DNA from: a virus
Direction: 5' to 3' (one strand)
Length of the DNA: 22,651 nt
Virus record (IMG/VR): IMGVR_UViG_3300006305_000166
Span: 1-22,651 of that record
A model generated the notes under the pieces. That model was not told where the DNA came from. It worked only from the letters and a program-made list of their open reading frames with translations, and did no database searches. Position numbers and translations under genes: made by a program. Shown here in pieces: positions 12,507-21,088 of the stretch; positions within the stretch are counted from its first letter, which is position 1, and each line of letters begins with the position of its first letter.

Positions 12507-14027
12507 ATGAGTTTATGGAGTATGAATGATGGCTCCTCGTTGTCTGGTACTCACACTTTTACAAATGGAAGTGCGATTGTACAAGCTAACGCTAGTGGAG
12601 CTTACAAATCCGAAGTAAAAATCGGTGATGTATTGACTACAGCTGGTGGAGAAAAAGTGAGAGTAAAAAACCTTACACCACCTAGAACAGTTGCTACATC
12701 TGATGTGAACGCAAGTAATGAAAGAATTACCATTACTGCACACGGATATACTGCAAACACACCACTCACATATAGTGCAGCTGGTGGAACTGCAATCGCT
12801 GGACTAACAGACGGACAAATCGTATTTGTTAAAACTGTTCACGATGCAAATACAATAGATGTATCTGCAACAGAGGGTGGTTCAGTAATTGACTTAACTG
12901 GTACTGGTAATAATTCACAAACATTTATTGGTGAAACAAATACTGGTATAACATTAACATCTGACTTTGGTGGAAGTACAGAAAGTGGTGTCGCCGCTAC
13001 TGTATCAAGACCACCAATAGACGGACACGGTGGAACTATTGACACTAATGTATTAGGTATAGATGAGGGCGAATCTGTTGCTGGTGTTGACAATGTAACT
13101 GATATTGCATTAACATCAACTACTGGTGCAAGATATGTACAAGCACCAACTATTACAGTTGCAGGCCCAACTGCAAGAACTCTTGCAACTGCAAATGTTT
13201 CACTTGCAAACGATACATTTACACTAACAAACCACAATTTAAGAACTGGTACATCATTGACTTATAATAGTCAAGGTGGAACTAATCTTGCACAAAATAG
13301 TGGTAACATTGCAGATGATACTGAATTATTTGTTATTCGTGTAGATGCAGACACTATTAAGTTAGCAAGTTCACTTTCTAATGCACAAGCTGGTACTGCC
13401 ATTGATTTTACTGGTGGTTCTAGTAATGTTGGTAATAACTCACAAACATTAACTGGTACTACTGCAACTGCAACTGCAACAATTTCTGGTGGAGCAGTTT
13501 CTGCAATTACTGTAACAGCAGTAGGTTCTGATTATCAATCTACACCAGCTGTAACAGTTGAAGCACCTAAAATGACTATTCCTACAAGTGCTGTAAATGC
13601 TAGTTCAAATGTAATCACATTTGCTGGACATGGTTTATCAGATACTGACCAAATCACTTACAACCAAGTAGGTGGTGGTACTTTGATGACCAATGTAACT
13701 AACGGACAAACTGTATTTGTTAGAGATAAAACTGACGATACCTTTAAAATTGCAGCTACTTCTGGTGGAACTGCGATTAATATTGGTACTGGTCATAATG
13801 CACAGACATTTACTATTGTTACTGGTGCAACAACGGCAACTGCTGTCGCTTCACTTGGTTTAGGTAACGATGGTGATACTAACACAACTGAGATTTCTCA
13901 TGTTGGTTGGGTTAAGAAAACTGTTGGTACTGGTGGTCGTGCTGGTAGAGTTCAATATGAAACTCTAGTTGCCGCTTCTAGTATTTCTGGTGATGCTGCT
14001 GATGATATCGCACTACCAGATAGTTAG
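12507..14027 (+). CDS. Virion structural protein with alternating beta repeats
   Basis: This 506-residue protein is rich in Thr, Ala, Gly, Asn and Val and poor in charge, unlike its lysine-rich neighbours, as expected for a beta-structured virion surface protein. The N-terminus MSLWSMNDGSSLSG recalls structural proteins of T4-like marine phages. Three long repeats contain NxITxxxHGL, then LTYxxxGGT, FV and GxAIDLTG...NxQTF. They alternate with two shorter repeats ending PTITVAGP and PAVTVEAP. The C-terminus HVGWVKKTVGTGGRAGRVQYE is distinctive for a phage structural family. Decoration, fibre or tail roles are all possible. Strong ribosome site and late promoter box upstream. Confidence 0.82.
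   Translation: MSLWSMNDGSSLSGTHTFTNGSAIVQANASGAYKSEVKIGDVLTTAGGEKVRVKNLTPPRTVATSDVNASNERITITAHGYTANTPLTYSAAGGTAIAGLTDGQIVFVKTVHDANTIDVSATEGGSVIDLTGTGNNSQTFIGETNTGITLTSDFGGSTESGVAATVSRPPIDGHGGTIDTNVLGIDEGESVAGVDNVTDIALTSTTGARYVQAPTITVAGPTARTLATANVSLANDTFTLTNHNLRTGTSLTYNSQGGTNLAQNSGNIADDTELFVIRVDADTIKLASSLSNAQAGTAIDFTGGSSNVGNNSQTLTGTTATATATISGGAVSAITVTAVGSDYQSTPAVTVEAPKMTIPTSAVNASSNVITFAGHGLSDTDQITYNQVGGGTLMTNVTNGQTVFVRDKTDDTFKIAATSGGTAINIGTGHNAQTFTIVTGATTATAVASLGLGNDGDTNTTEISHVGWVKKTVGTGGRAGRVQYETLVAASSISGDAADDIALPDS
12702..13830 (+). repeat. Alternating A-B-A-B-A protein repeats
   Basis: Type A copies lie at about 12702-12935, 13195-13455 and 13589-13826, each about 75-87 residues. Type B copies lie between them, with Y-x-x-x-P-x-(V/I)-T-V-x-x-P at their ends. 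The DNA is diverged although the protein pattern is clear. Copy 2 of A has extra residues in its loops. Confidence 0.75.
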
Positions 14028-14930: not shown

Positions 14931-15361
14931 TGATAGATTTTAAACAGTATATCACTGAACTACGAGGGCCTAAGCCTGCGAACTCTAATGCACAACACGA
15001 TTCTGACCACGATATGATTGATGTATCTGATGATAGTGTTGTTAGAAAACTAAACTCATTTTTAGGTTGTATCGCTGATATGGAACATATGTTACCAGAA
15101 CAAACTATTGGTGTTGTAAGAAGAAGACTTGCAAGTATTGGATTAAGTTTTCCAAATGTTGATATAGTAGAAGATTCTGGAAGTATATCTGCACCACTTA
15201 CACAATTTGGTGGAAGATTTGGTAAAGATATTGATACTCCACACGATGAGTTTGTTAACGATGATGGTATTTCGCATAGGGTTGAAGGTGGTCGTTCCAT
15301 TAACTTTGTTTATGAAAAAAAAGAAAATGGAAAATTTAAGGTAACTGCCGAAATTAAATAA
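14930..15361 (+). CDS. Unknown protein with MIDFKQYITE leader
   Basis: This 143-residue protein begins MIDFKQYITE, a capsid-targeting-like leader with Glu at residue 10. A helical region with a Cys follows (VRKLNSFLGCIADMEHML, then VVRRRLASIGL), and the end is beta-like with GGRFGKD, DDGISHRVEGG and NFVYEKKENGKFKVTAEI. I recall homologues in marine T4-like phages, all without known function. The start overlaps the previous stop (TAATG), and its stop overlaps the next start in the same way. Confidence 0.75.
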   Translation: MIDFKQYITELRGPKPANSNAQHDSDHDMIDVSDDSVVRKLNSFLGCIADMEHMLPEQTIGVVRRRLASIGLSFPNVDIVEDSGSISAPLTQFGGRFGKDIDTPHDEFVNDDGISHRVEGGRSINFVYEKKENGKFKVTAEIK

Positions 15362-15723
15362 TGTTTGAAAAAATAACGCCTGATAATGTTATGATGTATG
15401 CAATGAAACATTATAATAATCCTCAAGGGGATAATGAAAAAGAATTTCTTGATGATATGAAAAGATTTAAATATATCAAGAGATTGTTGAGAAAGTATCA
15501 AGACAATGGGTCTTTGAAAGAACGATTGATTTTAAATCATATAATTGTTTTAAATAATGTCTTTGGTGCAGATGCGTGTTCAACATTATTGTTATTTAAG
15601 TTAGAAACTTCGTTATGGAAATATGTTAAACCATTTATGGAATTATTAAACATTCTTCCAGATGGTGAACTAAAAGATATAAAGAATGATGAAAAAGTAG
15701 AAAGTATTTTAAGGAATATTTAA
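15361..15723 (+). CDS. Conserved-type helical phage protein
   Basis: This 120-residue all-helical protein contains the recognisable stretch VMMYAMKHYNNPQ, then EFLDDMKRFKYIKRLLRKY and LKERLILNHIIVLNNVFGAD. I recall near-identical segments in many T4-like cyanophages, where the protein has no known function. It has no N-terminal targeting-like leader. The two closest downstream genes overlap or abut it. Wide conservation suggests an essential role, perhaps in virion assembly given its neighbours. Confidence 0.8.
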   Translation: MFEKITPDNVMMYAMKHYNNPQGDNEKEFLDDMKRFKYIKRLLRKYQDNGSLKERLILNHIIVLNNVFGADACSTLLLFKLETSLWKYVKPFMELLNILPDGELKDIKNDEKVESILRNI

Positions 15724-18023: not shown

Positions 18024-18497
18024 ATGATATTTGGTTATGCAAAAATGGCAATCACTTTAGTGATGATTATAGGTATCGGTGGTGCGTTGACTTATGTTTT
18101 CAAACTTCGTGCAGACAACGCTGTACTCAAAGCAAACAATCTGGTATTAGAACAAAGTGTTGAATCACAAAAAATGGTAATAGAACAACAGAAAAAAGAT
18201 TTTGAAACCATACTTGAAACAAATAAAAAACTCACAACACTCTCAAACAATCTTCAACAAGAACTCAATGATTTAGATAAACGATTTACTAAAGGTGATA
18301 GAGATATAGGTAAAACTGCAATCGCAAAAGATAAAGTGATTCAAAGAATAATAAATAAGGCAAGTGCAGCTGCACTTAGATGTGTAGAAATATCATCTGG
18401 TTCACCACTAACAGAGAAAGAAATAAATGCAACAAAGAAAAGTGAAATCAATAGGGAGTGTCCTTCTATCGCTAACCCTAATTATATTCCTTACTAG
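18024..18497 (+). CDS. Inner-membrane spanin (Rz-like) candidate
   Basis: This 157-residue protein has one N-terminal membrane segment (about residues 7-26, MAITLVMIIGIGGALTYVF) followed by a long coiled coil (about 30-100, LEQSVESQKMVIEQQKKDF and on), then a periplasmic end with two Cys. That is the layout of type II inner-membrane spanins such as lambda Rz, which link to an outer-membrane lipoprotein and fuse the two membranes at lysis. The last 71 bases encode the signal peptide of the next gene in another frame, the classic Rz/Rz1 overlap. The start directly follows the previous stop, with a weak ribosome site. Confidence 0.78.
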   Translation: MIFGYAKMAITLVMIIGIGGALTYVFKLRADNAVLKANNLVLEQSVESQKMVIEQQKKDFETILETNKKLTTLSNNLQQELNDLDKRFTKGDRDIGKTAIAKDKVIQRIINKASAAALRCVEISSGSPLTEKEINATKKSEINRECPSIANPNYIPY

Positions 18498-18801
18498 TTG
18501 TTCTAGTATCAAGAAGATAGAAACTTTTTTCACACCAGTTGAAAGAGAACCTCTTGGTTTAGAAGAGCCTGTTTTGGGTAAGTTAGAATCAATAAAGTGG
18601 ATTGTTATCACATCAGAAAATGCAGAAGAAGTATTTAAGAAACTAGAAGAAGAGGGTATTGACCCAGTTTTATTCGGTCTTACAGACAATGATTATCAAC
18701 TGATTGCAAAGAACTTTGCACAGATAAGACACAATCTCAAAACTAAATCAGAAATCATTAAATCGTATAAAGAATATTACGAACCAAAGGAAAAGAAATA
18801 A
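18427..18801 (+). CDS. Outer-membrane spanin lipoprotein (Rz1-like) candidate
   Basis: This 124-residue protein starts with a lipoprotein signal peptide: basic KVKS, the hydrophobic run VLLSLTLIIF, and a lipobox LTSC with Cys25, followed by SS, which favours outer-membrane sorting. The mature part has a Pro-containing stretch (FFTPVEREPLGLEEP) and a small alpha/beta region KWIVITSENAEEVFKKLEEE...DPVLFGLTDNDY, seen by recollection in phage Rz1-type proteins. It begins inside the inner-membrane spanin candidate. It would be the partner in disrupting the outer membrane of a Gram-negative host. Confidence 0.8.
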   Translation: MQQRKVKSIGSVLLSLTLIIFLTSCSSIKKIETFFTPVEREPLGLEEPVLGKLESIKWIVITSENAEEVFKKLEEEGIDPVLFGLTDNDYQLIAKNFAQIRHNLKTKSEIIKSYKEYYEPKEKK

Positions 18802-19391
18802 TGGAAATGATATTATCACTTGCAGAACAGTTCTGGCAGTGGACAGTTGTAATCATATTGATAATCATTGGTATGATTATAAATTTTTTAGATAAAAAAC
18901 AAGCAAATAAGTGGAGAGTCAATTTTAAATATGATGAGTATCCACATATGAGACCTATCAGAATTGCAACCAGAGATAAAGGTTTTTGGGGTGCAATATT
19001 GATGTGGTTATTAGGTAGAAGAAGATGGCAAATATCAAAAGATTTTCATTATGAACTAAATGGTATTAAATATGTAATACCAAAAGGTTTTTCTTTTGAC
19101 GGTGCAAGTGTTCCTAAGTTTTTAGCAACTTTTTTATCACCAGTTGGGGTATTACTTTTAGGTGGTTTAATCCACGATTATGCTTATAAATATGCAGCTC
19201 TGAAACCTGCTTTACAAAAAAGTTCTTTGTTGGTGGTTGACCAAAAACAAGCAGATAAAATTTTCAGAGATATAAACATAGAAATAAATGGTTTCTATTT
19301 TCTAAACTATCTTGCGTACTGGGCACTTAGATTAGGTGGTTGGTTTGCTTGGAATAAACATAGAAAAAGAAATTTACAAATAGGAGACTAA
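18801..19391 (+). CDS. DUF1353-type membrane-anchored protein
   Basis: This 196-residue protein has an N-terminal membrane segment (about 13-31, WTVVIILIIIGMIINFL). The soluble part matches the phage DUF1353 family: YVIPKGFSFDGASVPKFLA, then GGLIHDYAYKYA with the His-Asp pair, and the QADKIFRDI helix. The function of DUF1353 is not established. It often lies near phage lysis genes, as here, directly after the spanin pair and before a small membrane protein. The ATG overlaps the previous stop (TAATG); an ATG two codons later is possible. Confidence 0.82.
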   Translation: MEMILSLAEQFWQWTVVIILIIIGMIINFLDKKQANKWRVNFKYDEYPHMRPIRIATRDKGFWGAILMWLLGRRRWQISKDFHYELNGIKYVIPKGFSFDGASVPKFLATFLSPVGVLLLGGLIHDYAYKYAALKPALQKSSLLVVDQKQADKIFRDINIEINGFYFLNYLAYWALRLGGWFAWNKHRKRNLQIGD

Positions 19392-19392
19392 C

Positions 19393-19578
19393 ATGAAAGA
19401 ATGGTTTGAAGATTCAATAGATTGGGTAAAAGATAGATTAGAAGAAAGAACAAGTCTTGATGGTGTTGTATTAATTGCAATGGGTCTTATTGCATTGTTA
19501 TTTCAAGGGATTGTTACATGGGCTGCATACATCGCTATTGCATATGGAGTTTGGACTTTAGTTAAATCTGAATGGTAG
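19393..19578 (+). CDS. Small membrane protein, holin candidate
   Basis: This 61-residue protein has a good AGGAG (19382-19386). A charged N-terminus (KEWFEDSIDWVKDRLEERTS) is followed by two short hydrophobic segments, GVVLIAMGLIALLF and TWAAYIAIAYGVWTLV, and a KSEW end. Size, one or two membrane spans and its place in a lysis-type block fit a small holin, which would permeabilise the inner membrane. I also recall similar small proteins in T4-like phages without assigned role, so the holin call is only a candidate. Confidence 0.65.
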   Translation: MKEWFEDSIDWVKDRLEERTSLDGVVLIAMGLIALLFQGIVTWAAYIAIAYGVWTLVKSEW

Positions 19579-19630: not shown

Positions 19631-20041
19631 ATGACAATAAAAACCGAACTAGAACTTCTTAAAAAAGATGTAAGTGATATGAAACATATTCACTCACGCC
19701 TTGATACTGCGATTACTAAACTTACAGATGTATCAAACTGTATTAATAAAATACTTGCAGTACACGAAGAAAAACTTGCAAGACAAGAAGAAGAATTAAT
19801 AAAAAACGAAAAAGAAATAAAAAAAGAAATACAAGAATTACATTCAAGGGTCACATCAAATTACAAAGAAATAGTCACACTTATAAGTAAACACAATTCA
19901 GATGATATTGAAAGATTTCATCAACTTCAAAGAGAATTATCTAATAGGGTAGGTATATTAGAAAAGTGGAGGTGGATTATTATCGGTGGTTCAATAGTCG
20001 CTGGATTTATTCTTCACAAAGTAATTATGTTCGCTATATAG
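19631..20041 (+). CDS. Tail-anchored coiled-coil membrane protein
   Basis: This 136-residue protein is helical and highly charged (LELLKKDVSDMKHIHSRLD, then HEEKLARQEEELIKNEKEIKKE as coiled coil), with a single C-terminal membrane segment, WIIIGGSIVAGFILHKVI. No Shine-Dalgarno sequence is visible before the ATG. The topology (cytoplasmic or virion-side coiled coil with a membrane tail) could suit an antiholin, a lysis regulator or a membrane-tethered assembly factor; I cannot choose. It stands between the holin candidate and the primase promoter. Confidence 0.75.
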   Translation: MTIKTELELLKKDVSDMKHIHSRLDTAITKLTDVSNCINKILAVHEEKLARQEEELIKNEKEIKKEIQELHSRVTSNYKEIVTLISKHNSDDIERFHQLQRELSNRVGILEKWRWIIIGGSIVAGFILHKVIMFAI

Positions 20042-20043
20042 TA

Positions 20044-20072
20044 TTGACAATCTTTTAATTATGGTATATAAT
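20044..20072 (+). promoter_or_regulatory. Perfect-consensus sigma70 promoter for the primase gene
   Basis: TTGACA (20044-20049) and TATAAT (20067-20072) have 17-base spacing, a textbook host promoter. The expected start is 20079-20080, directly at the ATG (20081), so the mRNA would be leaderless or nearly so. The -35 box begins 3 bases after the upstream stop codon. Confidence 0.88.
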
Positions 20073-20080
20073 GTTTATCT

Positions 20081-21088
20081 ATGAACACTTTTGTTGATAC
20101 AAAATATATTGGTCTTTTATCTTCAAAGTTATCACAGTTTAAAAAGAAATCTGGTAATCTATACAATTTCAGATGTCCATACTGTGGTGATTCAGAAAAG
20201 TCTAAAACTAAAGCCAGAGGTTATCTTATACTCAATAAAACATTTTATGTTTATAAATGTCATAATTGTGAGAAATCTACTGACTTTGGTAGTCTGTTAA
20301 GATATGTAAATAGTGATTTGCACAAAGAATATACATTTGAAATCTATAAAAATAAGAATGTATATATACAATCAGACGATAATAAAAAAGATTTGAACTT
20401 AACTAAACCAGTATTTCTAAAAGGAGATTCTCCACTCAAAAAACTCAAGAAAATTTCACAACTTAGTCCAGACCACCCAGTAACTAAATGGGTAAGAAAT
20501 AGACATATTCAAAGTCGTTTTCACTACAAGTTGTTTTTCTGCAACAGATTTTATGAGTGGGTTAATACTTTTATACCGAACAAGTTTCCATCTTTAAAAG
20601 GTGACCACCCAAGATTTGTGATACCTTTTTTAGATAAGAGTAATAAAATGTTCGCACTACAAGGTCGTGCATTTGGTAAAGAAGAACCAAAGTATTTGAC
20701 CATTAGATTGAGTGATGAAAAGAAACTATATGGTTTAGACAGTATCAACTGGGGTAGGAAAGTTTATGTTGTTGAAGGCCCGATTGATAGTTTATTTCTA
20801 GATAATTGTGTTGCAACTGCACACTCTGATTTGAGAATTGATAAGAAAGATAATGTGACATTGATACCAGATAATGAACCAAGAAATAGGGAAATAGTAA
20901 AAAGAATTAGAAGTTTTATAGAAGATGATTTTTCTGTATGTTTGTTTCCAGAACAAATAAAACAGAAAGACATTAATGAAATGGTTGTGTCTGGAGTAAA
21001 AGACATAAAGAAACTAATAGACGATAACACATATAAGGGACTTGAGGCAAAAGTCCGATTTAACGAATGGAGAAAAATAGATGCTTAA
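20081..21088 (+). CDS. 61: gp61-like DNA primase
   Basis: This 335-residue protein fits the T4 gp61 primase (342 residues). The zinc-binding motif CPYC (residues 32-35) with CHNC (60-63) frames GDSEKSKTKARGYL, the typical DNA-sensing N-terminus. The TOPRIM domain shows VYVVEGPIDS with Glu232, and LIPDNE near residue 265, the acidic residues that bind Mg2+ for RNA-primer synthesis. It would work with the gp41-like helicase encoded at 2052. No Shine-Dalgarno sequence is seen before the ATG, and the promoter sits so close that the message is probably leaderless. It overlaps the reductase gene by 8 bases. Confidence 0.92.
   Translation: MNTFVDTKYIGLLSSKLSQFKKKSGNLYNFRCPYCGDSEKSKTKARGYLILNKTFYVYKCHNCEKSTDFGSLLRYVNSDLHKEYTFEIYKNKNVYIQSDDNKKDLNLTKPVFLKGDSPLKKLKKISQLSPDHPVTKWVRNRHIQSRFHYKLFFCNRFYEWVNTFIPNKFPSLKGDHPRFVIPFLDKSNKMFALQGRAFGKEEPKYLTIRLSDEKKLYGLDSINWGRKVYVVEGPIDSLFLDNCVATAHSDLRIDKKDNVTLIPDNEPRNREIVKRIRSFIEDDFSVCLFPEQIKQKDINEMVVSGVKDIKKLIDDNTYKGLEAKVRFNEWRKIDA

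Follow-up and report, generated by a model that had tools for sequence, protein, structure and literature searches.

Among the spanins described so far, those of the phages lambda, T5, and T4 offer the closest comparisons for the gene pair analyzed here. In lambda Rz/Rz1, as in those spanins that the main spanin survey (PMC6139136) classes as overlapped, an inner-membrane protein is combined with an outer-membrane lipoprotein encoded in a shifted, overlapping frame, and the same arrangement is predicted at positions 18,024 to 18,801 of a 22,651-base IMG/VR virus record (IMGVR_UViG_3300006305_000166, positions 1-22,651; this whole stretch is referred to as the window). The overlap of 71 nt is close to the 70 bp that the survey reports for the T5 spanins. 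However, the spanin genes of lambda are embedded, whereas those of the window are overlapped and do not lie beside an endolysin gene in this genome type, and lambda Rz1 has been described as unstructured, whereas the o-spanin of the window has 124 amino acids and a predicted helical model. T4 PseT.3/PseT.2 resembles the window in its T4-like background and in lysis genes that are not clustered with the endolysin, but it is assigned to the class of separated genes, whereas the two genes of the window overlap. Furthermore, PseT.2 was described as a beta-alpha-beta protein with two cysteines, whereas the o-spanin model is mainly helical and the cysteines are located in the i-spanin instead. The preliminary description of the locus considered the pair not obviously homologous to PseT.2/PseT.3, which holds as far as a tblastn search of 50,697 phage records at E <= 0.1 can show: no enterobacterial T4-like record was among the matches. 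No lambda record was among them either.

A membrane-anchored protein and a lipoprotein with the motif LTSC around Cys25 had been proposed from the sequence, and both ORFs were recovered, in different frames and with the overlap of 71 nt (Table 1). The part of the o-spanin gene that lies within the overlap corresponds almost exactly to the signal peptide. The i-spanin contains no proline up to residue 127, and its conserved C-terminal region carries Cys120 and Cys146. Cys25 is the sole cysteine of the window o-spanin, which has a conserved core at approximately residues 43-119, and it is invariant in 48 aligned o-spanin rows, which were picked for having a lipobox. The lipoprotein signal on which the preliminary description had staked its reading was thus present, as judged by our own pattern rule. 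The small folded domain that had also been proposed for the lipoprotein fared less well: helices were modeled at residues 66-75 and 87-118 by AlphaFold2 (mean pLDDT 78.3, pTM 0.45), but a domain was not firmly confirmed, and the model had no match with E <= 0.001 in a Foldseek search of a viral structure library (best E 2.5).

Table 1. Features of the predicted spanin locus and its neighbors (positions within the window)
Feature	Position	Strand	Description
i-spanin (predicted)	18024..18497	+	157 aa, ATG; short N-terminal membrane segment; phrog_739, 3.7e-9
o-spanin (predicted)	18427..18801	+	124 aa, ATG; predicted outer-membrane lipoprotein, lipobox LTSC at residues 22-25; phrog_812, 8.3e-6
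Two-frame overlap, 71 nt	18427..18497	+	Encodes the i-spanin C terminus in one frame and the o-spanin signal peptide in the other; second frame shifted by one
Cys25 codon	18499..18501	+	Putative lipid-bearing Cys, assigned from the sequence; starts two bases past the end of the i-spanin ORF
DUF1353 protein	18801..19391	+	196 aa, N-terminal membrane anchor; PF07087, 3.8e-14
DGASVP	19098-19115	+	Part of the phospholipase-A2-like site of the DUF1353 protein
HDYAY	19173-19187	+	Part of the phospholipase-A2-like site of the DUF1353 protein
ADKIF	19251-19265	+	Part of the phospholipase-A2-like site of the DUF1353 protein
61-aa protein	19393..19578	+	Two hydrophobic segments (residues 22-36 and 39-53); holin candidate
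DUF7201 coiled-coil protein	19631..20041	+	PF23831, 3.6e-14; C-terminal hydrophobic segment; related to cyanophage T4-GC 201

Both proteins matched PHROGs families that are named Rz-like spanin; these are direct family matches, although that of the o-spanin is weak and the family names are annotations. In Pfam, neither protein had a match above the cut-off. The tblastn search returned 13 records for the i-spanin and 8 for the o-spanin, from Pelagibacter and Vibrio phages and, for the i-spanin only, Roseobacter phages, in all of which the corresponding proteins are annotated as hypothetical or are unannotated. By profile search, the same two families were identified in the Vibrio phages phiKT1024 and Va1, the Roseobacter phage RDJL Phi 2, and the Methylophilales phage Melnitz, where they have been deposited as hypothetical proteins. 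The homologue search suggested in the preliminary description thus provided spanin-family matches for both proteins and relatives in viral contigs as well as in phage isolates. The same description had named a virion structural role as the finding that would speak against spanins. The ORF at 12507..14027, upstream of the pair, is likely to be structural and is baseplate-like, its middle part matching baseplate-wedge families, but neither protein of the pair matched a virion-protein family in PHROGs or Pfam, and endolysin genes adjoin relatives of the pair (see below). A virion or tail function of the pair was rejected on these grounds and is considered highly improbable.

To assess conservation, viral contigs were scanned with each of the two proteins (best 80 loci each), and these loci were combined with five isolate regions and the window. 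The resulting 163 records (162 loci and the window) contained 149 with both ORFs in order and 91 distinct pairs; since these were gathered by profiles of the same proteins, part of their likeness is due to selection. An N-terminal membrane segment was predicted from hydropathy in all 91 i-spanins. A strict lipobox was detected in 87 of the 91 pairs, the remaining four reading Asn-Gly-Cys or Gln-Gly-Cys; by the same rule, 21 of 1,221 other forward-strand ORFs of at least 80 aa in these loci were positive, so that a chance occurrence of the lipobox was rejected. The same frame shift was found in 90 of the 91 pairs, and the overlap measures exactly 71 nt in 56 and 10-19 nt in 19. In the i-spanin frame, the fraction of differences at fourfold sites was 0.257 (2,701/10,515) within the overlap versus 0.505 (7,545/14,948) upstream of it, counts that derive from comparisons among related sequences and hence are non-independent events. 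Such a halving of change is expected if selection acts on both frames.

The cysteines follow a regular pattern: Cys120 is present in 89 and Cys146 in 90 of the 91 i-spanins, two cysteines past residue 40 are found in 90, and 80 of the 91 o-spanins possess no cysteine except the lipid-bearing one. The presence of two i-spanin cysteines fits the rule of the spanin survey that each pair has at least one homotypic disulfide (PMC6139136), the disulfide being predicted here. In a positive-inside count, Lys/Arg was commoner after the membrane segment than before it in 82 of 91 i-spanins, against the expected orientation. Because this count gave no support, the i-spanin topology rests on homology; since the i-spanins, too, came out misoriented, the charge-count test was dropped.

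Several features were observed in individual relatives. In HTVC008M (KC465899.1, approximately 117049-117797), both spanin frames are interrupted, for which sequencing error and decay are indistinguishable; as annotated, the pair is therefore not recognizable in this phage and was left outside the 91 pairs. In three loci of the endolysin type (L132:6841-7008, L075:6390-6551, and L061:6384-6545), an extra ORF of 53-55 aa with a lipoprotein-like start directly follows the o-spanin gene. The o-spanin family also occurs in marine bacterial MAGs, on four contigs of which two belong to one assembly (L174-L177, L205); these are probably phage contigs binned with hosts, and the first assembly has DUF1353 and both spanins together.

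Links to lysis emerge from the gene neighborhood of the relatives. Among the distinct pairs flanked by at least 2.5 kb on each side, the 26 near which no DUF1353 gene was found include 19 with an endolysin relative upstream, starting 464-1,058 nt before the i-spanin gene (12 GH108, 4 GH19, and 3 M15); none was detected in the other 7. These neighbors were counted by their likeness to five proteins confirmed by Pfam, namely, GH108 endolysins (L132, L155, and L075), a GH19 endolysin with a peptidoglycan-binding domain (L061), and an M15 peptidase (L103). An M15 relative was also present in 2 of the 39 pairs with DUF1353 and in 1 of 44 loci of the reverse scan described below. A single spanin family next to endolysins of three unrelated families is difficult to explain other than by a lysis module. 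Phage lipoproteins can have exclusion roles too, and a membrane protein encoded together with a lipoprotein might form a superinfection-exclusion pair instead of spanins; given the overlapped architecture, the homology to spanin families, and these endolysin neighbors, however, this is very improbable.

In the window itself, no endolysin was seen among the ORFs scanned, in agreement with the initial statement that none was in view, and in some relatives endolysins are encoded elsewhere in the genome. HTVC008M possesses glucosaminidase-type and GH108 endolysins approximately 24-26 kb from the spanin locus, and in Melnitz a GH108 endolysin lies approximately 13 kb from the spanins. Of 18 related records, many of which are fragments, 2 had a detected GH108 endolysin and 7 one of the glucosaminidase type, so that at least one of the two types was found in 8 of the 18. 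By coordinates, the distance between spanins and endolysin is approximately 13-37 kb; one record (G003) is an exception with approximately 146 kb, or approximately 20 kb if the record is circular. Five glucosaminidase-type endolysins (L168, L169, L170, L172, and L173) have an N-terminal hydrophobic segment, which suggests that these endolysins are membrane-anchored or exported.

Taken together, the PHROGs matches, the conserved architecture with its lipobox, anchor, and periplasmic cysteines, the constraint on the overlap, and the endolysin neighbors argue for a two-component spanin of the overlapped class, ordinary in kind, and we assign this reading, which agrees with the Rz/Rz1-like pair originally proposed, a probability of roughly 0.9. 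Less expected than the pair is its DUF1353 neighbor.

The DUF1353 protein and the small membrane protein that had been announced downstream of the pair are both present there. The match of the former to PF07087 scored 52.5 bits against a curated cut-off of 22.5. One DUF1353 protein, TtaP, was shown in a 2024 study to be a phospholipase A2 with a His/Asp dyad, and its authors consider that other members of the family are likely to have the same activity (PMC11525133). TtaP shares with the window protein the Pfam family, the conserved His-Asp, and a second Asp; however, it has 125 aa and no overt secretion signal, whereas the window protein has 196 aa and an N-terminal anchor, and the two were compared by description. 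Residues H125, D126, Y129, and D152 (window numbering) are invariant in 60 of 60 distinct DUF1353 proteins from spanin loci, 51 of which have an N-terminal membrane segment, and HDxxY with a later xDxx[FM] was found in 69 of 69 and 49 of 49 DUF1353 genes of the two reverse scans. In an hhalign profile comparison with a phospholipase homologue of the family PF09056, the motifs DGxSxP, HDxxY, and ADxxF were co-linear, a match that is weak (P 0.0036, probability 9%) but better than that of the o-spanin, used as a control (P 0.28). The structure model of the DUF1353 protein is modest (pLDDT 70.6), and no phospholipase A2 was among its listed Foldseek/VIA matches (best E 1.0; one VIA row with Z 2.2). 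A search of PDB sequences with the DUF1353 profile gave no match; with the L104-type DUF1353, there was one, to a repeat-containing protein (E 0.0046). Nothing was found above the NCBIfam cut-offs. For the o-spanin profile, resemblances of 18-19 residues to PPR proteins in PDB (E to 1.7e-5) were read as chance. By its invariant catalytic-site residues, the window protein appears to be phospholipase-like, with a putative lipase activity.

The association between DUF1353 and the spanins was assessed in both directions. In the forward direction, 65 distinct pairs had at least 2.5 kb on both sides (26 of the 91 were short of this on one side), and DUF1353 was located within approximately 2.4 kb of the i-spanin start in 39 of them (27 upstream and 12 downstream) and not detected in 26. 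In the reverse direction, viral contigs were scanned with two DUF1353 alignments, mainly the window type and a divergent second subtype that is 24-28% identical to it and has no anchor; the loci comprised the best 80 of at least 504 for the window type and 76 for the second subtype, and genes without 2-kb flanks (25 of 69 and 11 of 49 distinct DUF1353 genes, respectively) were left out. Among these best 80 and 76 loci, both spanins of this family were found within approximately 1.7 kb, on either side, in 40 of 44 and 35 of 38 cases. The i-spanin gene lies upstream of DUF1353 in 10 of the 40 and 16 of the 35 cases and downstream in the other 30 and 19. The o-spanins were absent from the first set in 29 of 40 and 28 of 35 cases and already there in 11 of 40 and 7 of 35. 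The linkage is strong, but since both queries derive from DUF1353 genes found at spanin loci and the hits are close relatives of shared ancestry, it does not represent 75 independent events.

In RefSeq and PHROGs, DUF1353 proteins are labeled "tail assembly chaperone", a name that fits poorly with the phospholipase A2 activity proven for one protein of the family. If this label were correct, the block would be tail-related. The window protein does match phrog_1158 (4.3e-28), several RefSeq records bear the label, tail genes adjoin DUF1353 in phage KIRK (PMC7924643), and a tail-fibre neighbor is present in two Helicobacter prophages. However, an enzymatic activity has been proven within the family (PMC11525133), the catalytic-site residues are invariant (60/60), and spanins adjoin DUF1353 in 75 of the 82 flanked cases of this group (among the best 80 of at least 504 and the 76 loci), so that a chaperone role is judged quite unlikely.

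Harder to weigh is the reading in which the pair encodes spanins but the DUF1353 and 61-aa proteins serve an earlier remodeling of the host membrane, unrelated to lysis, and are neighbors through shared gene order. DUF1353 is widespread outside phages, exceeding the cut-off in 30 of 398 genomes from a single bacterial phylum, where many of the genes look chromosomal. With 17 single-sequence queries, an insensitive approach, none of these 30 loci had a lysis-like neighbor, and the spanin profiles of this analysis were positive for one, a phage-like contig with this spanin pair (L205). DUF1353 is therefore not lysis-specific in general. In phiKT1024, it is located approximately 70 kb from the spanins, and in RDJL Phi 2 it was not found; deletion of the DUF1353 enzyme of the typhoid islet caused no envelope difference according to the 2024 study (PMC11525133). 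Against this stand the linkage, which was seen in either search direction and in either gene order and extends to two subtypes of 24-28% identity, and the situation in other phages: in 18 regions hand-picked for variety (17 of the 109 records matched by the second subtype and phiRTG5), some of whose neighbors were unscanned, a lysis gene was found at most three genes from DUF1353 in nine, namely, DMCA, Bakedbeans, NrS-3, Segz_1, Bjorn, phiRTG5, CR5, Nican01, and Cygsa01. In Segz_1, the order is endolysin-endolysin-holin-spanin-DUF1353. In the remaining nine regions, which include the two Helicobacter prophages, no lysis gene was found near DUF1353. A role outside lysis is accordingly a serious possibility, somewhat short of even odds.

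The position of the block can be compared with that in cyanophages. P-SSM7 and Syn1 share a gene row composed of T4-GC 198, one more gene, T4-GC 201, the gp61 primase, and nrdA. The window possesses homologues of T4-GC 198 (15361..15723), of T4-GC 201 (the DUF7201 protein, with a match to P-SSM7 only), and of the primase, and the genes for the spanins, the DUF1353 protein, and the 61-aa protein, plus three other ORFs, lie between the first two. The slot occupied by the block ends on the right at the DUF7201 protein, which is taken to lie outside the proposed lysis block itself. The family phrog_451 spans this protein and the adjacent primase (19631..21088) in a single profile, and the two may therefore exist as one fused protein in some phages. 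Searches of the whole records of P-SSM7, Syn1, and the pelagimyophage Mosig recovered neither DUF1353 nor the o-spanin; for the o-spanin, this agrees with the spanin survey (PMC6139136), in which T4-like cyanophages, P-SSM7 and Syn1 among them, are listed as spanin-less. P-SSM7, Syn1, HTVC008M, and Melnitz all belong to the family Kyanoviridae. In Melnitz, the same block is present, including DUF1353 and a relative of the 61-aa protein, but its gene order differs; an extra small membrane-type protein is encoded there between the latter and the i-spanin (L162:4900-5241), with a weak match to DUF2746 below the cut-off. For the 61-aa protein itself, neither a PHROGs or Pfam match nor a holin family was found; among its 39 distinct relatives, two membrane segments were scored in 26 and one in 13.

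A mechanism can be proposed by analogy with Rz/Rz1. The N-terminal segment of the i-spanin would anchor it in the inner membrane, the o-spanin would be tethered to the outer membrane through its lipid-bearing Cys25, and the two may meet across the periplasm. An endolysin encoded elsewhere would first cut the peptidoglycan, after which the spanins would pull the inner and outer membranes toward each other and open the latter. The spanins, the DUF1353 protein, and the 61-aa protein probably form one lysis block. In it, the membrane-anchored DUF1353 protein, a putative phospholipase, could weaken membrane lipids or lower the fusion barrier, and the lysophospholipids and free fatty acids that it would release may destabilize membranes or favor spanin-driven fusion. 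That this putative enzyme is a lysis partner of the spanins is put forward tentatively, its lipase activity, role, and timing being deduced from conserved residues and gene context. The 61-aa protein may act as the holin, a candidate role that we grade weaker than that of the phospholipase. More broadly, it is conceivable, though we would not yet bet on it, that a large group of marine phages uses the spanin pair with a mostly membrane-anchored DUF1353 phospholipase A2 as a third component, and that the DUF1353 proteins of many other phages, which often bear the name "tail assembly chaperone", are lysis enzymes too.

In the literature covered (titles and abstract openings, with most subscription journals and preprints outside the scope), no description of this pair or of a link between DUF1353 and spanins was found. 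For Melnitz, those who described the genome put forward a curli pore as a possible regulator of lysis, and no spanin gene is named in the text consulted (PMC9004378). The recognizable spanin pair of Melnitz and its marine phage relatives offers a more ordinary answer for the opening of the outer membrane, and it also marks a position where two cyanophage relatives, P-SSM7 and Syn1, have none. If the link to DUF1353 is functional, a misleading gene name could be corrected, and the lysis of ocean bacteria by phages would include a dedicated lipid-degrading enzyme; DUF1353 could then represent a contribution to host lysis by such phages that has gone unnoticed.
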